Made by a program: the position numbers and the translations under genes. A stretch of 64,000 nt of DNA. It comes from Allomuricauda sp. GTDB lineage: Bacteria; Bacteroidota; Bacteroidia; Flavobacteriales; Flavobacteriaceae. Below, piece by piece: positions 845-50,347 of the stretch. The notes under the pieces were generated by a model. That model saw only the letters and a program-made list of their open reading frames with translations, ran no database searches and was not told the origin of the DNA. The DNA is taken from positions 62,001-126,000 of the forward strand of contig NZ_PABT01000027.1 in NCBI RefSeq assembly GCF_002699205.1, given 5' to 3'. Within the stretch, counting starts at the first letter, position 1. Every line of letters starts with the position of its first letter.

Positions 845-907
845 TCGAGGTGGAATAATTCCACCTTTTACACCTAATTTTCATCTCGAGGTGGAGAATA
901 GGTGTAA
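845..907. repeat. Palindrome and direct repeats upstream of the integrase
   Basis: Three repeat relationships are packed into 63 bp. Positions 848-866 are a perfect 19-bp palindrome, AGGTGGAAT-A-ATTCCACCT. The decamer TCGAGGTGGA occurs at 845-854 and again at 886-895. TTACACCT at 868-875 is complementary to AGGTGTAA at 900-907. The block lies 16 bp upstream of the integrase start. That position fits an operator or recombination-directionality-factor site, or a 5' leader hairpin of the integrase transcript. No function is proven. Confidence 0.6.
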
Positions 908-1016
908 TAAAAGTAGCAAGGTGAACAAATAAAAGATAAAATCAGTTAGAGAAGTTATCAACAAAACATTGATAATCAAACATATATAAATAAATGAAAA
1001 TATTGGAAAAATCAAT

Positions 1017-1034
1017 TTACTTCCCGATGCAGAA
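1017..1034 (-). other. Candidate attachment site at the 3' end of mnmE
   Basis: The last 18 bases of mnmE, including the stop codon, read TTCTGCATCGGGAAGTAA on the minus strand and encode the conserved C-terminus FCIGK. Integrative elements of the SGI1 type in gamma-proteobacteria use the homologous last 18 bp of this gene (also called trmE or thdF) as attB. A tyrosine recombinase sits directly beyond this end. The second copy needed to prove an att pair would lie left of the window, so this is an inference from position. Confidence 0.4.
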
Positions 1035-2387
1035 ATTGGAGAAGATATTCCCTAAAAGATCATCGGTGGTAACGCTTCCTGTAATCTCCCCCAAGTGATA
1101 AAGTGCCTGTCGGATATCAATGGCCATTAAATCGCTGGAAAGTTCCATATCCAGGCCTTCCTTTACTTTTTGGATTTCTTCCAAAGCTTTCAAAAGAGCA
1201 TCATAATGCCTGCTGTTGGTAACGATGGTACCGTCACCACTTAACGCCCCGGAATCTACCAGCGACAACAGTTTGTCCTCAAGTTCCGAAACACCATTTT
1301 TGAATTTTGCGGAAAGGAAGAGTACATCGGGTATTTCCAATTGTATTTTCTCTTTCTGTCCAGGTTTCAAAAGGTCCATTTTATTGCAGATGGGCAATAT
1401 TTGTTTATTGGGGTAGCGTTTTTGGATCTGTTCCAACTCCGTCTTGTCAAAATCCAAACCGTCAAAAAGATAAATAATGAGCCGGGCCTTTTCAATTTTA
1501 TCAAATGTCCGTTCAATGCCGATTTTTTCAACCACATCTTCGGTTTCCCGAATTCCAGCGGTGTCAATGAACCTAAAATTGATTCCATTTAAACTGATAT
1601 GATCCTCCACTGTATCCCTAGTTGTCCCCGCAATTTCACTCACAATGGCACGCTCCTCATTGAGCAATACATTCAACAAGGTTGATTTGCCAACATTGGG
1701 TTGCCCCACTATGGCAACGGGAATACCATTTTTGATTACATTGCCAAGTGCAAAAGAGTCAATCAGCTTTTTAAGGACATCGCTGATCTTGGTGAGCAGT
1801 TCGTTGAACTGTGTCCTATCCGCAAATTCCACATCTTCTTGTGAAAAATCCAATTCTAGTTCAATCAATGAAGCAAAGTTCAACAGTTCCTGTCGCAGTT
1901 CATGGATTTCGTTGCTGAATCCCCCGCGCATTTGTTGCATGGCAATATCATGGGCCGCTTCACTGTCACTTGCGATAAGGTCGGCGACGGCCTCTGCCTG
2001 ACTAAGGTCCATTTTACCGTTGAGGAAAGCTCTTAAGGTGAATTCTCCCGCAGAGGCGGCACGACAGCCGTTCCTCAATAAAAGTTGGACAATCTGCTGT
2101 TGGATAAAAGGTGAACCGTGGCAAGAAATTTCCACCACATTTTCACCCGTGTAGGAATGGGGTCCTTTGAAAATGGACACCAATACTTCGTCCAGAATTT
2201 TATCACCGTCTATAATATTCCCCAAATGAATGGTATGGCTTTTCTGCTTTTCCAGTTTCTTTCCTTTAATGGATTTGAAAAGGGGGTCCACCAAGGTTAT
2301 GGCATCTGGTCCGGAAACGCGGATTACGGCAATGGCCCCAATTCCTGAGGCTGTTGCCAAGGCTACGATGTTATCTGTATACGACAT
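1017..2387 (-). CDS. mnmE: tRNA modification GTPase MnmE (TrmE)
   Basis: The 456-residue protein matches the usual MnmE length. With MnmG it installs the (carboxymethyl)aminomethyl group on U34 of certain tRNAs. An N-terminal tetrahydrofolate-binding domain (about 1-120) is followed by a helical domain that is interrupted by a G domain. The G domain has P-loop GQPNVGKS, switch motif DTAG and NKMD. The C-terminus ends in FCIGK with the conserved catalytic-region cysteine. The start is the ATG at 2387 (MSYTDNIVALAT); a GTG two codons upstream is less likely. mnmG is not nearby. The 3' end faces an integrase, but the reading frame is complete. Confidence 0.97.
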   Translation of the reverse strand: MSYTDNIVALATASGIGAIAVIRVSGPDAITLVDPLFKSIKGKKLEKQKSHTIHLGNIIDGDKILDEVLVSIFKGPHSYTGENVVEISCHGSPFIQQQIVQLLLRNGCRAASAGEFTLRAFLNGKMDLSQAEAVADLIASDSEAAHDIAMQQMRGGFSNEIHELRQELLNFASLIELELDFSQEDVEFADRTQFNELLTKISDVLKKLIDSFALGNVIKNGIPVAIVGQPNVGKSTLLNVLLNEERAIVSEIAGTTRDTVEDHISLNGINFRFIDTAGIRETEDVVEKIGIERTFDKIEKARLIIYLFDGLDFDKTELEQIQKRYPNKQILPICNKMDLLKPGQKEKIQLEIPDVLFLSAKFKNGVSELEDKLLSLVDSGALSGDGTIVTNSRHYDALLKALEEIQKVKEGLDMELSSDLMAIDIRQALYHLGEITGSVTTDDLLGNIFSNFCIGK

Positions 2388-2473
2388 GGCCACAAAAGTA
2401 CAAATTAGCTGGTGTTTGTAACATTTTTAATAATTTCCATACTAATAAGTTGAATCATCAAAATCAATCAAAA

Positions 2474-2833
2474 ATGGAAGTTATCAATCAAAAAGCAGTT
2501 AGAACGGACAATACTTTGTTGGCCGTAACACATCTTACACAATTATTGAACTACACTTTAGGTTTTGGAGGACTCATCACGCCTTTGATCATATGGCTAT
2601 CCTCCCGGAACCAAGTGGAAGGGATGGACGAGCATGGTAAGGCCATCATTAATTTACAGATCAGCCTGATTCTTTACCTTATTATAAGTATTCCCGCAAT
2701 TTTATTTTTTGGTATTGGGCTACTAGGTCTTATCGGAACCGCAATATTAGGGTTTGTGATGCCCATAGTCAATGCCGTTAAGGCTGCAAATGGGGAACCG
2801 CCGTCTCACTTCATGACCATTAAATTTTTATAA
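2474..2833 (+). CDS. DUF4870 domain membrane protein
   Basis: This is a 119-residue protein starting MEVINQKAVRTDNTLLAV. The open frame extends further upstream, but this ATG gives the family's normal length and follows an A-rich leader. It has the DUF4870 (Tic20-like) layout: a short polar N-terminus, a first hydrophobic segment around GFGGLITPLIIWL, a polar loop with the typical EHGKAIINLQ, then two more hydrophobic segments and the NAVKAANGE region. The function of the family is unknown. It is a single-gene unit divergent from mnmE and ends in a hairpin terminator. Confidence 0.88.
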   Translation: MEVINQKAVRTDNTLLAVTHLTQLLNYTLGFGGLITPLIIWLSSRNQVEGMDEHGKAIINLQISLILYLIISIPAILFFGIGLLGLIGTAILGFVMPIVNAVKAANGEPPSHFMTIKFL

Positions 2834-2837
2834 AACA

Positions 2838-2868
2838 AAAAAGCTGGAACAATTTGCTCCAGCTTTTT
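2838..2868. terminator. Bidirectional intrinsic terminator between DUF4870 gene and dnaN
   Basis: An 11-bp stem (AAAAAGCTGGA with TCCAGCTTTTT) encloses a 9-nt loop. It is flanked by A and T runs, so it can stop transcription arriving from either of the two convergent genes. Confidence 0.85.
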
Positions 2869-2889
2869 CAATTATGGTTGGTAGTTAAT

Positions 2890-4008
2890 TTAGTTATTCA
2901 ACATTACGGGCATTACCAACATGGTAACGTGTTCACCTTCATCCAAACCGTCTATTGGGGTAAGGATTCCGGCTCTGTTGGGCAAGCTCATTTCCAAAGA
3001 GACTTCCTCCGAGGACAAATTGTTCAACATCTCCAGCAAAAATCTGGAGTTGAAACCTATTTGCATATCATCCCCTTGGTAAGCACATGAGAGCCTTTCC
3101 TCAGCTTTGTTACTGTAATCGACATCTTCTGCCGAGATATTGAGCTCTGCACCGGCAATCTTTAAACGGATTTGGTGTGTTGTCTTGTTGGAGAATATGG
3201 AAACCCTTCTGACCGAGCTCAAAAACTGGTTTCTGGCTATGGTCAACTTGTTCGGGTTTTCTTTTGGAATCACAGCTTCGTAGTTCGGATATTTTCCATC
3301 GATCAACCGGCATACCAATTCCGTATTGTCAAAATAGAATTTGGCGTTACTATCGTTGTATTCAATGGTTACATCGGATTCGGAACCTGCCAAAATACCC
3401 TTTAAAAGGGTCAATGGCTTTTTGGGCATAATAAATTCCGCCACCTCAGAAGCAGAGACATCCTGTCGTTGGTATTTGACCAATTTGTGGGCATCTGTGG
3501 CCACAAAGGTCAAATTCTCGGGAGAAAACTGGAAAAACACCCCGCTCATTACCGGGCGAAGGTCGTCGTTGCCGGCGGCGAATATGGTTTTGTTGATGGC
3601 CGTTGCCAGAATATCCCCCAATAGGGTAGTGGAACTCGGATTTGAGACTTCCACGGCCTTCGGGAACTCGGCACCATCGGCATACGCCAAGGCGTATTTA
3701 CCATGGTTGGAACTGATTTCCACTGTGTTGTTGTCCTCTACAACAAAGGTCAAAGGTTGTTCCGGAAAGGTTTTCAAAGTGTCAAGCAATAAGCGCGCAG
3801 GCACTGCAATGGCACCTTCAGAGTCGGAATCCACCTCCAAGACCGTACTCATAGTGGTTTCCAAATCAGAGGCGGAAACGGTCAATTTACTTTCTTTAAG
3901 ATCGAACAGGAAATTATCGAGGATGGGCAAGGTGTTGCTATTGTTGATAACTCCTCCCAAAACCTGTAGTTGTTTTAATAGATATGTGCTGGATACAATA
4001 AATTTCAT
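2890..4008 (-). CDS. dnaN: DNA polymerase III beta subunit (sliding clamp)
   Basis: This 372-residue protein is the standard clamp length. It starts MKFIVSSTYLLKQLQVLGG; the ATG at 4008 is chosen over a TTG one codon upstream. Three clamp repeats are recognisable, with conserved segments such as NTLPILDNFLF, MSGVFFQF and FIMPKKPL in the first two-thirds. The C-terminus is VMLNN, where the family usually ends in a short PMxLx motif. The ring-shaped dimer tethers polymerase III to DNA. The gene is monocistronic here and not next to dnaA, as is common in Bacteroidetes. Confidence 0.97.
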   Translation of the reverse strand: MKFIVSSTYLLKQLQVLGGVINNSNTLPILDNFLFDLKESKLTVSASDLETTMSTVLEVDSDSEGAIAVPARLLLDTLKTFPEQPLTFVVEDNNTVEISSNHGKYALAYADGAEFPKAVEVSNPSSTTLLGDILATAINKTIFAAGNDDLRPVMSGVFFQFSPENLTFVATDAHKLVKYQRQDVSASEVAEFIMPKKPLTLLKGILAGSESDVTIEYNDSNAKFYFDNTELVCRLIDGKYPNYEAVIPKENPNKLTIARNQFLSSVRRVSIFSNKTTHQIRLKIAGAELNISAEDVDYSNKAEERLSCAYQGDDMQIGFNSRFLLEMLNNLSSEEVSLEMSLPNRAGILTPIDGLDEGEHVTMLVMPVMLNN

Positions 4009-4128
4009 CAACGAAATACTTTAGTATTGTTGCCTTTATGGCAGTTTATTCCCGTTTATGGGGCTATAAAATCAATAAAAACAAATATATCCCAAATGGA
4101 CTTAGTAGAGAAACAAATTTATCAACAT

Positions 4129-5793
4129 CTATGCGGCAAATTTACGCTTCCTATAATAACTGAAGAAAAAGCCGAACAATATTGTCAAAACCACTGGTAA
4201 CCCAATGTTTATAAGCTGCCACTTGGTTTTTTGTTCCACTATTTTTTTAACATCCAAAAGTGGAATGGATACTTTCTTGTTCCGAATGTTAATAAGCCCG
4301 GTATTGTCCAAAAGGTAATTTGTGCTGTTTACCAAAAATTCCTTGTTTCCGTAGAAGCTATTGGTCCATTTGTCGTACCCCAGTTCCAGCGGTCTTCCGT
4401 TCCGCAACTGGTTCTTGATAATATCCCCATCAGAGATTACGATCATTTTATTTTCGGGGCCTTCTTCCATGGTGTTTTTCAACCTCAACGGCTTTACCCT
4501 GTTCTTGTACATAGAGGTGAAATTACCTTCTATCAATACGGCCAAGGGTAAATTTCCATTGTTGTAGGTTTCTTTGTCGGGCGGGGTGTTCAGTATATCC
4601 AAACCGATTTGCCTAGGGGTTCCATCCGTTTTGGAAAGAGGGGAACTCTGAAGTAGAACGGTTTTTTGGTAATCGTTTTCCAAAACATCCATCGGGCTGG
4701 TAAACTGAAAGCGAACGGCTTCAATATTGGTGTTGATGGGATGGTTGTTCTGTGAAAAAACCATTGGATAATAATACCACGGCAGGGGATTGTATTGGGA
4801 ATCGTTTCCTTCTCCCGTGGCCAAAACAATTTGGGTAAAATATAGGTCGTTCACCAATACGGGGTTGATCCTGACCCCATATTTAAAGAAAAAATCCTTT
4901 AAATTAAGATCTCGGGGAATGGCAATGGCCTCACCGCCACCGGCATAAATGCTGTCCATTTCCATAATTACTTGGTCCATCATCCAAATGGATTTACCCC
5001 CCTGGACCACATATTGATCCATAACATATTTTTCTTGATCTGTAAATGCTTCCGTCGGTTTTGCGATAATGGCCAGATCAAATTCTTTTAATTGGTCCAA
5101 AACCTTCTGTGGATCGGTGGCCACTGAATCCAGAGTAATGGCACCAATATTATAGTAATCGCGGATGGTGGTAAGGTAATCGGCGATAAAAACATCATCC
5201 AGTTCGCCGTTTCCTTTGATGACCGCTATGCTTTTTTTGTCCTCAATGCTCAATTTGGTAAAGGCATCGGCAAAGGCATATTCCAATTGCTGTACCGAAT
5301 TGTTGATGCGCTCTTCTGCCGTGGAGCCCAATTTGTTTTTTAGCAAGGGCACTTTTACGGTCTGGTCGTTGTAATTGACCATTGCCCAAGGGAATACCAG
5401 TTCATTGGAAACTTTCCCATTTTCCTCCACCGTTACATTGGCGGGCTGTAGCCCCAAGCTTTGCAGTTCCGCGATGGTTTGTTCCGCAAGTTCCTCATCT
5501 TCCAAGGGGTCCACCAAATTATATTTGATGTTACTGTTTTTTGACCCAAAGGATTCCAACAGCTGGATGGTCTCCGCTTTCAGTTTGGAGAACTCGGCGG
5601 GAATGTCCCCATCCAGCAAAACATCCACTATAACAGGGGATTCAAATTTTTGGGCCACTTCTATGGCAGGTTGGGAAAGGGTGTACCTTTTATCTTCGGT
5701 AAGATCAAAACGGGTATAGACAAAACTGGCCAACAGATTGATGACCACCACTGCTACAAGTACTTTTAATATGGATACAAATAACTTCCCCAT
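4129..5793 (-). CDS. gldG: Gliding motility-associated ABC transporter protein GldG
   Basis: The protein has 554 residues with an N-terminal membrane segment (about 5-25, VLVAVVVINLLASFVYTRF) and a C-terminal one near 525-548, followed by YYRKRKFAA. Between them lies a large extracytoplasmic domain of the GldG/ABC-2 auxiliary type. In Flavobacterium johnsoniae, GldA, GldF and GldG form an ABC transporter needed for gliding, although other gliding Bacteroidetes lack it. The start codon overlaps the gldF stop by one base (TAATG), so the two are translationally coupled. gldA is not in the window; in this family it is often encoded elsewhere. Confidence 0.95.
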   Translation of the reverse strand: MGKLFVSILKVLVAVVVINLLASFVYTRFDLTEDKRYTLSQPAIEVAQKFESPVIVDVLLDGDIPAEFSKLKAETIQLLESFGSKNSNIKYNLVDPLEDEELAEQTIAELQSLGLQPANVTVEENGKVSNELVFPWAMVNYNDQTVKVPLLKNKLGSTAEERINNSVQQLEYAFADAFTKLSIEDKKSIAVIKGNGELDDVFIADYLTTIRDYYNIGAITLDSVATDPQKVLDQLKEFDLAIIAKPTEAFTDQEKYVMDQYVVQGGKSIWMMDQVIMEMDSIYAGGGEAIAIPRDLNLKDFFFKYGVRINPVLVNDLYFTQIVLATGEGNDSQYNPLPWYYYPMVFSQNNHPINTNIEAVRFQFTSPMDVLENDYQKTVLLQSSPLSKTDGTPRQIGLDILNTPPDKETYNNGNLPLAVLIEGNFTSMYKNRVKPLRLKNTMEEGPENKMIVISDGDIIKNQLRNGRPLELGYDKWTNSFYGNKEFLVNSTNYLLDNTGLINIRNKKVSIPLLDVKKIVEQKTKWQLINIGLPVVLTILFGFFFSYYRKRKFAA

Positions 5794-6524
5794 TACCTTG
5801 GCAATTGTTTTAAACGTTGAAGGGTGATATATAAAAACAATAGGGTCAATGATATGAAATAGATTAGATCTCGAGTATCTATGACCCCTCTGGCAATGCT
5901 GTCAAAATGTGATTTTGCCCCCAGATTTTTTATAAGCTGTTGTGTTTCCCCATTGGAAAAGATGGAAGATACCGCATCAAACCCGTCAAAGACCAGAAAA
6001 CAGACCAATATGCCCACCAGGAAGGCAATGATTTGATTGTCCGATAGGGTAGAGGCAAATATGCCGATGGAGGTATAGCAAGCAATCAAAAACAACAATC
6101 CAAAATATGAGCCCAATACCACTCCGAGGTCGTAGTTTCCCTCTACCATACCCAGACCGGATATGGCAAAAACGTAGACGATGGTCGGGATAACGGCAAT
6201 GACACACAATAGGAATGCCCCCCAGAATTTGCCAAGGACCAATTCCCAAATGGAGATAGGTTTTATCAACAACAATTCCAACGTGCCCATTTTACGCTCC
6301 TCCGAAAAACTTTTCATCGTGATCGCCGGCACCAAAAAGATAAAGATCCAAGGGGCCAATAAAAAGAAGTTGCCCAAATCGGCAAAACCGTAATCAAAAA
6401 TGTTGTATTCGCCCTTGAACACCCATAGAAAAAGTCCGTTGAGCAGTAAAAACGAACCAACGATCAGATAACCGATGGGCGATGTAAAAAAGGATCGTAC
6501 CTCTCTCTTAAAAATTGCGAACAT
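5793..6524 (-). CDS. gldF: Gliding motility ABC transporter permease GldF
   Basis: This is a 243-residue ABC-2 type permease starting MFAIFKREVRSFFTSPIGYL, the usual GldF opening. Six hydrophobic segments are visible. The short loop TMKSFSEERKMGTLELLL is typical of ABC-2 permeases. It partners GldG downstream and the ATPase GldA encoded elsewhere. It overlaps gldG by one base, and its start overlaps the stop of the small monooxygenase-like gene by one base. The genes from 7657 down to 4129 therefore look like one operon. Confidence 0.95.
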   Translation of the reverse strand: MFAIFKREVRSFFTSPIGYLIVGSFLLLNGLFLWVFKGEYNIFDYGFADLGNFFLLAPWIFIFLVPAITMKSFSEERKMGTLELLLIKPISIWELVLGKFWGAFLLCVIAVIPTIVYVFAISGLGMVEGNYDLGVVLGSYFGLLFLIACYTSIGIFASTLSDNQIIAFLVGILVCFLVFDGFDAVSSIFSNGETQQLIKNLGAKSHFDSIARGVIDTRDLIYFISLTLLFLYITLQRLKQLPR

Positions 6525-6826
6525 TAAGATGGGTTTGTTGATTGTAATTTATTAACGCTCCAAGCTTCGGGTTTGTCGGAGAACAATTTTTTTGTATTGC
6601 CCCAAACCTTTTTGAAGAAATCTGATTTTCTATAATCGTTGAGATGCGCTTCCGAATCCCAAAAACTATAGGTGAAAAATATGTTGGCATTGTTGATGTC
6701 CTGGTACAGTTCCACCATATTGCACCCTTCAAATGCCAAGATACCATTTTTAGATTCTTCAAAAATCCGCTCAAAACTAGCAATATTTTCGGGTTTAAAA
6801 GTCAGTTTTACGATGCGTATCAACAT
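6524..6826 (-). CDS. Antibiotic biosynthesis monooxygenase (ABM) fold protein
   Basis: The 100-residue protein starts MLIRIVKLTFKPENIASF and has the ferredoxin-like alpha/beta pattern of the ABM/YgiN family. Features include the NGILAFEGCNMVELYQD strand-turn and a C-terminal helix around DFFKKVW. Family members act as small dimeric monooxygenases or quinol oxidoreductase-like enzymes. The substrate here is unknown. It follows the SAM hydrolase gene with no gap and overlaps gldF by one base, so it is co-transcribed. A functional link to gliding is not implied. Confidence 0.85.
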   Translation of the reverse strand: MLIRIVKLTFKPENIASFERIFEESKNGILAFEGCNMVELYQDINNANIFFTYSFWDSEAHLNDYRKSDFFKKVWGNTKKLFSDKPEAWSVNKLQSTNPS

Positions 6827-7657
6827 TTATAGGAAATTTATGGTTATCGTGTCCCTATAATTCAAGCCCAAAAGGGAGGATGCCCCCCCAACCGAATTAA
6901 GGTCACTTTTATAGATTGCAAGCTCTATGTAGCCAGCAGAATTGAACAGGGCAAGTGCATCGCCTGGACCATTCCGTTGGCTCCTGTCGAGATTGTAATT
7001 GATGATTCCGTTATAGCTTTGGTATACCTGGGTAATCTTGGTGGTCCTGGCAATTATTTCAAAATCCCGTCCACTCCGGTATGCTTCGAAAAGGCTTTTC
7101 TGGATGTTGGTGACCACGTTTCCGTAATTGTCGATATAGATCACGTTGCCGGATATGGTTTTGCCCTCATTGGTGATACGTGGTTCAAAATCACGCAATT
7201 CCCTTAGTTTTTCAAAAGGTTTGCCAATGACCCCCAATTTGCCGCCACGGGCTATATGACAGGCAACTTGGACAAATATGTTTAGAACGGGAAAAGAACC
7301 GGGTTCGGCATTGGGTAAACTGATTTCGACCACGTTTTCCGGTTGTACCTCAGAAGTTATCAAGGACATTACACCACTATTGGCGCTGACAAAATAATGC
7401 CCGTCCACCTGCACCACGATATGTTCATTTTCAGGGGATATTTCAGAGTCCACCCCAACAACATGGACCGTTCCCTTTGGGAACGATTGGTAGGAATTCT
7501 TAAGGATATATGCACATTCCTGAATATTGAATGGGCTAATGGCATGCGAAATATCAACAATGGAGATATCCGGGAGGTTGCTCAGTATTGCCCCTTTCAC
7601 AGCACCAACAAAGTGGTCCTTATATCCAAAATCCGTTGTTAAGGTTATAATGGCCAT
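6827..7657 (-). CDS. SAM hydrolase (S-adenosyl-L-methionine hydroxide adenosyltransferase, DUF62)
   Basis: This is a 276-residue member of the DUF62/fluorinase-like family. It opens MAIITLTTDFGYKDHFVGA, with the conserved aspartate of the SAM pocket. SANSGVMSLI and a C-terminal beta-barrel domain follow. Housekeeping members hydrolyse SAM to adenosine and methionine using water, whereas the halogenases are rare relatives. The protein lacks the long insertion typical of the fluorinase, so hydrolase is the safer call. It is the first gene of the run leading into gldF and gldG. Confidence 0.88.
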   Translation of the reverse strand: MAIITLTTDFGYKDHFVGAVKGAILSNLPDISIVDISHAISPFNIQECAYILKNSYQSFPKGTVHVVGVDSEISPENEHIVVQVDGHYFVSANSGVMSLITSEVQPENVVEISLPNAEPGSFPVLNIFVQVACHIARGGKLGVIGKPFEKLRELRDFEPRITNEGKTISGNVIYIDNYGNVVTNIQKSLFEAYRSGRDFEIIARTTKITQVYQSYNGIINYNLDRSQRNGPGDALALFNSAGYIELAIYKSDLNSVGGASSLLGLNYRDTITINFL

Positions 7658-7702
7658 GCAATACTGTTGATATGTTTTTCCGTGTTCAAATTGATTTTTA
7701 GT

Positions 7703-7710
7703 TAAGTTTG
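7703..7710 (+). promoter_or_regulatory. Possible -7 box upstream of phoH
   Basis: TAAGTTTG fits the Bacteroidetes -7 consensus TAnnTTTG. No TTG is present at the expected 19-21 bp upstream spacing, so the call is tentative. If real, transcription would start near 7716. That rules out the GTG at 7712 and favours the TTG at 7778 as the phoH start. Confidence 0.35.
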
Positions 7711-7777
7711 TGTGGTAAAATTAGTCAAAAAAGAAAGAATAAAATTCTGCAAGAACAACTGTAACACCTCACTTTTT

Positions 7778-8737
7778 TTGAACGAACTTGTAATTGAACT
7801 CACGGAAATAAGCCCCCAAGAATTTTTTGGGCATCAAAACGCCAATATTGAGCTGCTGAAAAAATATTTTCCCAAGCTAAAGATTGTGGCGCGGGGAAAC
7901 AAAATTAAGGTATTTGGAGACGAGGAACTTTTGGAAGAGTTCGATAAGCGCTTTGACGAGCTCACCAGTCAATTTGCCAAATACAACAAGCTGGACGAAA
8001 ACATGATCGAGCGGGTGCTTACCAGTACCAGCAAAGAAGATTATATTTCCTCCTCCAGCAGTGGGGACGTCCTGGTGCACGGGGTGAGCGGTAGGTTGAT
8101 AAAAGCCCAGACCGCAAACCAGCGCCGTTTGGTGGATGCCTGTAAAACAAATGATATGGTTTTTGCCATTGGCCCTGCGGGAACCGGAAAAACCTATACG
8201 GGAGTGGCGTTGGCCGTAAAGGCGTTGAAGGAAAAACAGGTGAGGCGTATTATCTTGACACGCCCTGCCGTGGAGGCTGGGGAGAACCTTGGTTTTCTTC
8301 CGGGCGATCTCAAAGAGAAACTGGATCCATATATGCAGCCCCTATACGACGCGCTTAGAGATATGATTCCTTCGGAAAAGTTGGAGAAGTATATCGAGGA
8401 CGGGACCATTCAGATCGCCCCAATGGCCTTTATGCGTGGGCGTACCTTGGACAATGCATTCGTGATTTTGGACGAGGCACAGAACACCACACACGCCCAA
8501 ATGAAAATGTTCTTGACCCGTATGGGGAAAAGCGCCAAGTTTTTGCTGACGGGCGATCCTGGACAAATCGATTTGCCCAGAAGGGTAATATCAGGCTTAA
8601 AGGAAGCATTGCTTATTTTGAAAAATGTAGAAGGCATCAAGATCATTTATTTGGACGATAAGGATGTGATCCGACATAAATTGGTGAAAAAGGTTATTGA
8701 CGCCTATCAAAATATAGAGCACCAAAATCAATTTTAA
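7778..8737 (+). CDS. phoH: PhoH family ATPase
   Basis: With a TTG start at 7778 the protein is 319 residues and begins [15 protein letters not shown] after the initiator, as flavobacterial PhoH proteins do. The frame remains open upstream to a GTG at 7712 but contains no ATG. An N-terminal KH-like region (about 1-90) precedes the PhoH ATPase domain, with Walker A GPAGTGKT and Walker B VILDEAQN. PhoH proteins are cytoplasmic ATPases linked to RNA metabolism, with no settled role. purC follows after 5 bp. Confidence 0.92.
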
Positions 8738-47409: not shown

Positions 47410-48705
47410 CTATTTTTCCATTAAAAGCTTCATGATTTCTTCTGCGGCAACCTTACCTTTTTCTTTTAAGAATGCTCTGGAAGTGTTGTCGCCCAGTTCA
47501 AATACAATGGCTGGCATACCGTGGTTAACGTAAAAGTATTTGCTGGACACCATGGTAGGGTCAATCTCGTCGGAAGCACTTATGTTGGTTTTCTTTTGCG
47601 GTAATCTTTTACTGATGTTTTCTATCCAATCAAAGATTATTTTCCCCTTTTCACCCGTTACCGTGGTGTCGATAGGATAGTAGATATCGTCCCAAGTGGA
47701 GTGGAAGTCTGCGCCAAATACAAAATCATATTCCTTGTCTTTTTCTATAAGAAAGTCCCTAACGTTCCTAGTTTCGGGCTGATTGAAGTTTTGCCAATCC
47801 CTGTTAAGGTCGATTCCACCCATATTGTGCCTCCAATGACCGTTGTCAACACCATCGGGATTCATCAAGGGTACCACAAAGACCGTATGTTCTTGCCTAA
47901 ACTCCCTGGCTTGTTCGGAATCTCCGGAAATAGTTTCAATGAAAGATTTCATCGCCAAGAACCCTGTAACCTCAGGTGGATGTTGTCTGGAAATGATCAT
48001 CAAGGCTTTTTGGGCATCCTTGTTTTCATTGATTTCCATCAAATACATGGTTCTTTTCTCTTTGGACAGCCCAATGGGATAATTTTCAATGAAAGGTTTC
48101 TGGCTCAGGGAATCCACCCATTCCTTTACCACTGATGATGTATACAGTTCTTGAGCAGTGATCCATGTTGGGTTTTCACTCACACTGATGGTAAGTTTGG
48201 CAGATTCCGGTGCTGCTTTGATTCCAAATTCACCTTCCCCTGGATTGATGGCTTTGAATTTGGTACTGTCCAAAGGTTTGAAGTTTCTTCCATCAGTACT
48301 GATTTTTGGATAATATCTACTTCTGGAGTCTTGATAATTGAGCTGTACGGTTATGTCACGGGGCTCTTTGGACCAAACCTGAAAAGCATACCAGGGACTA
48401 ACGTTTATCGGCGTGTTTTCTGCAGTTACCCATATAGTATAATGGTCGTTGCCATCATAGGCTACGCCGTTCAAACGGGCACCATCAAATTTATTTGAAA
48501 AGAAAGTTGTACTGTCGTTGAAGGCCCAAATGCCTCTCCATTGTTTTTGAACCGGTTTGTCCACTGTGGGCACAACCGGACTTTTTCCTTGCCCTTGGTA
48601 CCCAGATGTTTTCTCCGTTTTGGCAGTTTCAGGGTTCTTTTTACAGGACGTGGTAAATAGTATGGAAAATAGTATTCCAATGGCAATCAAACTTTTAATA
48701 CGCAT
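47410..48705 (-). CDS. M14 family zinc carboxypeptidase, lipoprotein
   Basis: This 431-residue protein has a lipoprotein signal peptide (MRIKSLIAIGILFSILFTTSC). Residues about 60-190 form a beta-rich N-terminal domain. The M14 domain (about 200-431) has ISRQHPPEVTG, which supplies the HxxE zinc ligands, GIDLNRDWQNF, and FGADFHSTWDD with the second histidine. FELGD near the C-terminus gives the catalytic glutamate region. It is probably attached to the outer or inner membrane and trims peptides in the periplasm. It is a single gene. Confidence 0.92.
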   Translation of the reverse strand: MRIKSLIAIGILFSILFTTSCKKNPETAKTEKTSGYQGQGKSPVVPTVDKPVQKQWRGIWAFNDSTTFFSNKFDGARLNGVAYDGNDHYTIWVTAENTPINVSPWYAFQVWSKEPRDITVQLNYQDSRSRYYPKISTDGRNFKPLDSTKFKAINPGEGEFGIKAAPESAKLTISVSENPTWITAQELYTSSVVKEWVDSLSQKPFIENYPIGLSKEKRTMYLMEINENKDAQKALMIISRQHPPEVTGFLAMKSFIETISGDSEQAREFRQEHTVFVVPLMNPDGVDNGHWRHNMGGIDLNRDWQNFNQPETRNVRDFLIEKDKEYDFVFGADFHSTWDDIYYPIDTTVTGEKGKIIFDWIENISKRLPQKKTNISASDEIDPTMVSSKYFYVNHGMPAIVFELGDNTSRAFLKEKGKVAAEEIMKLLMEK

Positions 48706-48823
48706 GGTTTTTAGAATTATTTGAGTTGGTTTGATTACGAAAATATGAACAATGAACTAAGAAATGAATGTAAAAATATAAAAGCATCGTTTTTTTTACC
48801 ATATTTGCATCATCATGAAGTTA

Positions 48824-48933
48824 TAAGAATTATGTACGCGATAGATGTCATCATTGGGGAACCCCGATTTATGTAACCGAACACTCCTCGGTTCGTTGAG
48901 ACATTTCACTTCTTTTTTTACACATAATTCTTA
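48824..48933 (+). promoter_or_regulatory. Structured 5' leader of the MATE gene, candidate riboswitch
   Basis: A perfect 12-bp closing stem pairs 48824-48835 with 48922-48933. Inside it, 48844-48849 pairs with 48900-48905. Two hairpins sit within that: 48853-48858 with 48863-48868 (four-base loop) and 48875-48880 with 48888-48893 (seven-base loop). A T7 run lies at 48913-48919. The closing stem ends 4 bases before the ATG (48938), so folding would occlude the start. A near -7 box, CATATTTG at 48800-48807, would place the transcript start around 48814. I recognise no known riboswitch class. Alternatives are a small inverted-repeat element or chance pairing. Confidence 0.5.
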
Positions 48934-48937
48934 GATA

Positions 48938-50347
48938 ATGACAAATCAACATACAAATTCGTTTAAAAAAATCATCCAATATTTCTGGATAGCTATTTCT
49001 GGTAAGGAAATGGAATTCACCTCGGGAAGCATTCGAAAGGCCATTTTTATGCTTTCCATTCCTATGATCTTGGAAATGCTAATGGAATCCATTTTTGCCT
49101 TGGTAGATATTGCCTATGTCTCCAAGGTGAGCGTCAATGCGGTGGCCACTATCGGGCTTACAGAATCCGTGATTACCTTGGTCTATGCCTTGGCCATCGG
49201 GCTAAGTATGGCAGCGACAGCCATTGTGGCGCGTAGAATTGGCGAGAAAGACTCGGCTGGCGCACGAATTGCAGCGGTGCAAGCCATTGGCTTGGGGATT
49301 ATGATTTCTATTGTTATAGGAATCCTTGGAATTTTCTTTGCCAAAGATATTTTGGCGTTAATGGGAGGTGAGCCTGATTTAATAGCCGAAGGTTACGGCT
49401 ACACACAACTCATGATCGGTGGCAACATTACAGTTGTTCTTCTTTTTTTGATCAATGCCATTTTTCGTGGAGCGGGTGATGCATCAATTGCGATGTGGAC
49501 CCTAGTGCTATCCAATGGACTCAATATTATTTTGGATCCAATGTTTATTTTCGGATTTGGGCCCATACCTGAATTCGGTGTCAAAGGAGCTGCCATTGCC
49601 ACCAATATTGGTAGGGGGACCGCAGTAATTTTTCAATTGGGAATCTTGTTCTTTGGGTGGGGTAAAATCAAATTGATGGTTAAGGATCTTGTCTTGAACC
49701 TAAAAGTGATGGTCAATCTGGTAAAGGTTTCTCTAGGAGGAATTGCCCAATTTTTGATTGGCACTTCGAGTTGGATATTCCTCATGCGTATTATGTCCGA
49801 GTTTGGAAGCGAAGTATTGGCGGGTTACACCATTGCCATTCGAGTAATGATGTTCACCTTGATGCCATCTTGGGGCATGAGCAATGCTGCGGCAACTCTG
49901 GTAGGCCAAAATCTTGGAGCTAAAAAACCAGATAGAGCGGAACAATCTGTATGGAAAACAGGTAAGTATAATGCAATTTTCATGGGGTTGGTTTCTTTGG
50001 GCTATTTATTTTTTGCCAAAACAATCATTTCTTGGTTCAATACAACACCGGAAGTATTAAAAAACGGGGCACTATGTCTTCAGATAATCGCTTTGGGTTA
50101 TGTGTTCTACGCTTATGGTATGGTGGTGACCCAAGCATTCAATGGAGCAGGGGACACCCGTACACCGACCAAGATTAATTTGATTTCATTTTGGTTCTTC
50201 CAATTACCATTGGCTTATATTTTAGCCTTGGTTTTGGGATGGGGAGCTACCGGTGTTTTTGTGTCCATTACTTTGGCAGAAATCCTGATAGCGGTTTTGG
50301 CCATGATTTGGTTTAAAAAAGGGAAATGGAAGAAATTCCAAGTGTGA
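48938..50347 (+). CDS. MATE family multidrug/toxin extrusion transporter
   Basis: This 469-residue protein has 12 membrane helices in two pseudo-symmetric halves, opening with SIRKAIFMLSIPMILEMLME. The pattern GLSMAATAIVARRIGEKDS and the mirror ATLVGQNLGAKKPDRAEQS in the second half are typical of MATE/NorM proteins. These sodium- or proton-coupled exporters remove cationic drugs or metabolites. The substrate is not predictable. It stands alone behind a leader with strong secondary structure, which suggests post-transcriptional control. The trans-sulfuration gene follows after 37 bp. Confidence 0.93.
   Translation: MTNQHTNSFKKIIQYFWIAISGKEMEFTSGSIRKAIFMLSIPMILEMLMESIFALVDIAYVSKVSVNAVATIGLTESVITLVYALAIGLSMAATAIVARRIGEKDSAGARIAAVQAIGLGIMISIVIGILGIFFAKDILALMGGEPDLIAEGYGYTQLMIGGNITVVLLFLINAIFRGAGDASIAMWTLVLSNGLNIILDPMFIFGFGPIPEFGVKGAAIATNIGRGTAVIFQLGILFFGWGKIKLMVKDLVLNLKVMVNLVKVSLGGIAQFLIGTSSWIFLMRIMSEFGSEVLAGYTIAIRVMMFTLMPSWGMSNAAATLVGQNLGAKKPDRAEQSVWKTGKYNAIFMGLVSLGYLFFAKTIISWFNTTPEVLKNGALCLQIIALGYVFYAYGMVVTQAFNGAGDTRTPTKINLISFWFFQLPLAYILALVLGWGATGVFVSITLAEILIAVLAMIWFKKGKWKKFQV

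Follow-up and report, generated by a model that had tools for sequence, protein, structure and literature searches.

Inducible resistance governed by upstream open reading frames (uORFs) is chiefly found at Gram-positive ABCF and methyltransferase genes. Listeria lmo0919, mentioned in PMC10201436, is reportedly a further case. In Bacillus subtilis, vmlR is described as having a tripeptide uORF (MIN), the translation of which is required for induction (PMC9226507), and for both vmlR and cplR initiating ribosomes are reported to be held by retapamulin and lincomycin (PMC9226507, PMC10201436). The uORF of cplR in Clostridioides difficile is given as MR[I/M] (e.g., MRI) and that of VmlR2 as MK[L/Q] (PMC10201436). 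In the toiL-topAI system of Escherichia coli, toiL is described as pairing with the ribosome-binding site (RBS) under its control (PMC12121999).

Here we describe a leader in Allomuricauda sp. that lies upstream of a gene for a MATE exporter, within a window of 64,000 nucleotides (the whole stretch of DNA analyzed). We think it likely that this leader is a ribosome-mediated translation attenuator, in which stalls on a 5'-terminal tripeptide uORF would derepress the exporter. The presumed target (48938..50347, + strand, as are all leader features given below; ATG at 48938) encodes 469 aa and matches PF01554 (E 3.1e-62) as well as the subfamily model TIGR00797 (264.7 bits vs. a cut-off of 147.4), with no equivalog model reaching its own cut-off. 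Among solved structures, it comes closest to MATEs of archaea and bacteria, with 4mlb as the top match (E 3.6e-37).

Like vmlR as described, the locus has a tripeptide uORF near the mRNA start and a resistance gene downstream, and our proposal shares with that account a stalled initiating ribosome that remodels the leader, and translation attenuation as one layer of control. Unlike the leader here, vmlR is reported to encode an ABCF ribosome-protection factor, with a Shine-Dalgarno site and an intrinsic terminator; here the target is a MATE protein (PF01554) and not an ABCF protein, the first uORF (uORF1) begins ~3 nt past the predicted start of transcription, a second one (uORF2) is present, and a simple scan found 0 terminator-like sites in 48700-49050. 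In the published accounts, cplR and VmlR2 also have a three-codon uORF and an RBS that is hidden by a hairpin unless a ribosome is stalled there, and the VmlR2 consensus includes MKL, the peptide of uORF1, which is a matter of resemblance, not descent; unlike the case here, these are Gram-positive ABCF genes with a terminator hairpin. The similarity to toiL, as it is described, is that the uORF region itself pairs with the start/RBS region of the next gene, and the derepression of that system by stalling anywhere on the uORF, with several drug classes as inducers, can be likened to what we propose; it differs in its toxin-antitoxin target, its longer uORF, and a Rho-dependent layer. Stalling on a leader ORF is also reported to open the start of the resistance gene in the erm and msrD macrolide leaders, which, unlike uORF1, need nascent-peptide motifs, uORF1 being too short for exit-tunnel drugs. 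The logic of uORF attenuation is known; new would be the lineage, the target, the 5'-terminal tripeptide ORF without a Shine-Dalgarno sequence, and the coupled second uORF. Searches of the open-access literature brought up no report of a MATE gene under uORF control in Bacteroidota or Flavobacteriaceae.

The first-pass annotation of this DNA, which had read the leader as a candidate riboswitch, missed a -7 promoter box and the pair of conserved uORFs that the element contains. The box (CATATTTG, 48800..48807) differs from the consensus TAnnTTTG in its first base, and its fixed distance to uORF1 is conserved. Because the flavobacterial consensus -7 box is reported to span -12 to -5 (PMC9723704) with 4-5 nt between box and start (PMC6847099), transcription is predicted to start at 48812 or 48813. 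The ATG of uORF1 (ATG AAG TTA TAA, Met-Lys-Leu-stop; 48815..48826) would then lie ~2-3 nt past the transcription start, at the 5' terminus of the mRNA or very close to it, and in eight leaders with a 4-nt spacer uORF1 is predicted to begin exactly at +1. With only 3 nt ahead of it, uORF1 may be initiated inefficiently, which could make a weaker sensor.

We collected 166 distinct MATE leaders, 143 of which have the box followed 3-9 nt on by an ATG, this ATG being chosen blind to the sequence after it. uORF1 reaches its first stop at codon 3 or 4 in 141 of the 143 (66/66 in the genus Muricauda/Allomuricauda/Flagellimonas, hereafter the genus, and 75/77 elsewhere), a count, like the others across leaders, of observations that are not independent because the leaders share ancestry; as background, a comparable early stop follows 72 of 249 other upstream ATGs. 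The two leaders that fail, L186 and L192, belong to distant orthologues. The stops are TAA in 111 leaders, TAG in 29 and TGA in one, and all six leaders without a stop at codon 4 have one at codon 3. Codon 2 is mostly Lys, with Ile in Winogradskyella, Psychroserpens, Flavivirga, and relatives, and Asn in two leaders; codon 3 is variable across the leaders, and within the genus the MKL codons hardly vary. The 23 leaders without box plus ATG, which were left out of the count, comprise eight of genus g152, eleven distant loci, and the exceptions L124, L135, and L140 (no ATG at the box) and L148 (early stop lost).

uORF2 (MYAIDVIIGEPRFM-stop, 14 codons, 48832..48876) starts within the 5' arm of the closing stem, and its frame, stop, and codon pattern are conserved. 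It is 13-14 codons long in 66/66 genus leaders. In the MK-type leaders of other genera its ATG is found in 46 of 49, 33 of these 46 having 13 codons, and the stops are TAA (31), TAG (8), and TGA (6), with one frame open; the exceptions are L084, L143, and L162, without the ATG, and L083, without the stop. The distance from the uORF1 stop to the uORF2 start is 5 nt in 62/66 genus and 37/46 other leaders. In pairwise comparisons within the genus, uncorrected for the tree, codons 2-7 give a pN/pS of 0.25 in frame vs. 0.58 and 2.57 in the other frames, and codons 2-13 give 0.77 vs. 0.99 and 1.07, the contrast over the longer stretch being weaker because P3 (see below) constrains the rest of uORF2. 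Codon 3 is mostly Ala, Thr, or Ser in the genus, and Phe, Arg, Asp, Val, His, and others are found outside it. The uORF2 stop lies 55-67 nt from MATE in the genus table, a distance without three-base rhythm. No uORF2 is recognizable in the MI-type leaders. A leader peptide of the amino-acid-biosynthesis type was also considered and does not fit, as the uORF peptides have no run of regulatory codons and the region scanned has no terminator-like site.

The fold described earlier from the sequence was confirmed in its details. A perfect 12-bp stem, P1 (48824..48835 with 48922..48933), closes the leader, and its 3' arm ends 4 bases 5' of the MATE ATG. Inside it, a 6-bp stem, P2 (48844..48849 with 48900..48905), and two further 6-bp hairpins, P3 (48853..48868; 48853-48858/48863-48868) and P4 (48875..48893; 48875-48880/48888-48893), are found exactly where they had been placed, and the T7 run reported between the inner and outer stems falls within a pyrimidine-rich tract at 48910..48918, which forms no intrinsic terminator by the scan. 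The 5' arm of P2 and the P3 hairpin are inside uORF2, and P4 overlaps its stop codon. The predicted folding energy of the leader (-29.2 kcal/mol, z -1.99) is only modestly unusual, with 9/200 shuffles equal or better. The earlier impression that the leader fits no known class agrees with Rfam, in which gathering scores were reached by two tRNAs only across the whole window, and each of the four matches at E <= 10 in 48700-49000 was below gathering.

Comparison of the leaders supports a conserved, covarying cis-regulatory RNA. Among 60 genus leaders, 90.3% of the cells at 29 pairs are paired, the covariation score is 0.103 vs. 0.067 +/- 0.004 in shuffles (reached by 0/500), and two-sided changes occur at 11 pairs vs. 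5.4 +/- 1.5 (2/500 shuffles as high). These changes fall in P2, P3, and P4, and P1 is nearly invariant in the genus, with no two-sided change, so that the covariation support for P1 rests on other genera. There, P1 and P2 of 40 leaders give a covariation score of 0.191 vs. 0.124 +/- 0.008 (0/500 shuffles), with the P1 columns 15-132 changed from GC to AU in 11/40 and 16-131 from AU to GC in 17/40. RNAalifold on the genus alignment (A1) returned nine P1 pairs only, with zero two-sided changes, because P3 and P4 shift register, and the proposed stems were therefore counted explicitly. Covarying changes in the four stems had been put forward as support for a riboswitch. They do support a structured RNA (P2-P4 within the genus, P1 and P2 outside it), and do not separate a riboswitch from an attenuator.

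The closing helix is kept with other sequences. Tested against shuffles of the MATE start zone, the strongest helix joining that zone to the 5' zone is significant (p <= 0.05) in 123 of 154 leaders, and the other 31 have no significant P1. The arms of these P1-like helices are unrelated in sequence between clades: in Psychroserpens-type leaders, for example, AACAATCAT at the start codon of MATE is paired with ATGATTGTT. P3 and P4 vary in sequence and length, the junction interior being the variable part of the leader, and in Winogradskyella/Psychroserpens-type leaders the junction core has no counterpart by eye, the tripeptide uORF and the MATE-start stem being kept. At the sequence level, this comparison demonstrates that the uORFs and stems are under selection, and that P1 ties them to the MATE start.

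Genus g152 (loci L182-L190) has a related but distinct leader, in which a MIVSA-stop uORF pairs with MATE codons 2-5 (TGTTTCTG with CAGAAACA, the latter within the reading frame of MATE). MIVSA-stop is found in 8/9 of these loci, farther from the box, with interchange of ATT/ATA, GCC/GCT, and TAA/TAG. Besides such synonymous codon exchanges, one change is matched on both sides (L187 vs. L182).

Flavobacterium johnsoniae and its phylum are reported to lack Shine-Dalgarno sequences, with initiation depending on the structure of the start region (PMC6847099). As there is no Shine-Dalgarno pairing in Bacteroidota, attenuation would have to act through the start-codon region. We calculated the predicted energy needed to open MATE -20..+15 with and without a masked ribosome footprint, which was assumed to extend to 15 nt beyond the first base in the P site, near the 16-nt toeprint reported in PMC9226507. 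In this prediction, which ignores co-transcriptional folding and proteins, opening costs a mean of 9.3 kcal/mol in the free genus leader and 2.9 kcal/mol with a footprint at the uORF1 start (a drop in 66/66 leaders). Footprints at the uORF1 stop and uORF2 start give 2.3 and 2.8 kcal/mol, respectively, one at uORF2 codon 6 gives 4.8 kcal/mol, and one at the uORF2 stop gives 9.2 kcal/mol and eases the MATE start in 6/66 leaders only. The uORF1-start footprint likewise lowers the cost from 9.2 to 3.4 kcal/mol in the MK-type leaders of other genera (49/49), and from 6.5 to 2.5 kcal/mol in the MI-type leaders (26/26). In each of ten leaders tried, the drop was reached by 0/60 shuffles. A ribosome on uORF1 is thus predicted by the model to free the MATE start region. 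The first-pass annotation had suggested that the closing stem, 4 bases from the ATG, could gate translation: the distance is correct, and the covariation together with the predicted opening energy indicates that P1 probably does gate the translation of MATE.

Conservation is seen in P1, in both start codons, and in the frames and stops of the uORFs, which suggests that the thing sensed is the ribosome itself. We propose the following mechanism. The mRNA would begin ~3 nt 5' of uORF1, and, with no obstacle, ribosomes would leave uORF1 fast and P1 would fold, so that the uORF1-stop/uORF2-start region would bind the bases just 5' of the MATE ATG and MATE translation would be turned off. A ribosome held on uORF1 (at the AUG, codon 2 or 3, or the stop) or at the uORF2 start would cover the 5' arm of P1, so that the 3' arm would be free and MATE would be translated. 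We infer that the uORFs are translated and that ribosomes stall on them; the inducers may be inhibitors of initiation or of the first peptide bonds, e.g., pleuromutilins, lincosamides, or tetracyclines, some of which the MATE pump might export. It is quite possible, if short of probable, that many Flavobacteriales place a MATE exporter under a leaderless or nearly leaderless 5' ORF of two to three codons, without a Shine-Dalgarno sequence, which would report generally on ribosomes stopped during or directly after initiation at a leaderless start, and that in the MK-type the coupled 13-14-codon uORF2 widens the range of stalls sensed; the literature consulted describes no attenuator of this design. 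If the leader works as proposed, uORF-inducible resistance reaches an exporter in Bacteroidota, a 5'-terminal tripeptide ORF is an unusually simple natural reporter of drugs on initiating ribosomes, and the ribosome inhibitors that induce would point cheaply and directly to the substrates of the MATE pump.

Other readings were weighed against this one. P1 could simply lower MATE translation constitutively, with the uORFs supplying ribosomes by reinitiation or holding the leader open, and no sensing at all. Tandem uORFs with mostly 5-nt spacing suit termination-reinitiation, and reinitiation from leader ORFs is an idea already in print (PMC4833913); however, uORF2 ends 55-67 nt from MATE, which is far for reinitiation, and a lock of 9 kcal/mol and a tripeptide ORF kept in step across genera would be left unexplained, so we find this reading unlikely. 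It seems quite unlikely that the nascent peptide is what is sensed, with a drug stalling ribosomes at the conserved start of uORF2 (M-x-x-I-D-V) in the manner of the erm or cat leaders, and uORF1 playing an accessory part. The protein-level constraint on uORF2 codons 2-7 would fit, as would the opening of the MATE start by a masked codon 6 (66/66), and the prevalent codon-3 residues of the genus are phenicol-stalling ones (as cited in PMC12121999). However, codon 3 differs outside the genus, and the MI-type leaders have no recognizable uORF2. A phenicol-type rule (Ala/Ser/Thr at uORF2 codon 3) was dropped as the main mechanism because it fails outside the genus.

The element is probably not a metabolite-binding riboswitch either. 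The ligand-gated leader proposed earlier, in which the P2-P3-P4 junction would bind a metabolite or drug directly and P1 would gate MATE, draws on a conserved three-way junction that covaries, a closing stem that adjoins the start codon, and an exporter downstream. It is not supported by the comparison, as the junction core, where the aptamer site would be expected, is the variable part, and what is conserved is P1 and the starts, frames, and stops of the uORFs. The inner loops, like P3 and P4, differ in sequence and length, L059 (see below) and the MI-type leaders have no junction by eye, yet keep uORF1 and the MATE-start stem, and the conserved inner bases are accounted for by uORF2 codons and P2; with no Rfam match in addition, direct ligand binding appears highly unlikely. 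We regard it as most improbable that the short ORFs are untranslated by-products of constraints on the RNA (promoter-proximal sequence and stems): start codons and parts of the ORFs do sit in stems, and the MKL codons are near-invariant in the genus, but the stops interchange among TAA, TAG, and TGA and shift between codons 3 and 4, and the pN/pS of uORF2 is frame-specific.

For its distribution in the genus, the leader DNA was searched in 99 genomes and the matched stretches were then fetched. The leader precedes MATE in 59/60 genus genomes, the sole genome without it (G030) being 71% complete, and MATE is next to the leader in 58/59 loci (tblastn). In the remaining locus, L059 (G003), the contig stops 88 bases into the gene; L059 is part of alignment A1, and was left out of later counts because its contig ends inside MATE. 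No other genus leader is as diverged as this one (727-849), which keeps MKL-stop and an 8-bp P1, whereas its uORF2 is reduced to six codons (MSVFAV-stop) and its P2-P4 are unrecognizable. A covariance model built from the 60 genus leaders, to which G004 contributes two copies, matches 48 of 397 sampled Flavobacteriaceae genomes and 32 of 237 genera (E <= 0.1, strict filters). A mobile inverted repeat (MITE) at many loci, the other origin considered for the stem, was ruled out, because the repeat is single in its genome, with one covariance-model match at E <= 10 and the P1 pattern at one place; a search of plasmids with the element gave no match. Farther out, the genus g5 loci, at the level of the order, have no leader of this type, and among 28 further MATE orthologue loci from the class a possible uORF1 was seen only in L207 (MKLAF-stop, found by script) and L202 (MKLIMPIF-stop, found by eye and not flagged by the script), the remaining loci having no uORF1.

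Two observations concern the surroundings of MATE. A gene for a Cys/Met-metabolism PLP enzyme (PF01053; 50385-51554 of the window) begins 37 nt past MATE on the same strand, and the two may share a common transcript. In L055 (G004, 865-8422), the leader, the MATE start, and the start of a divergent M14 peptidase gene are present in two copies 4.65 kb from each other, one with the full M14 gene and a MATE shortened to 138 aa, and the other with a shortened M14 frame (269 aa) and the full MATE. This suggests that the leader was the site of a duplication or rearrangement.
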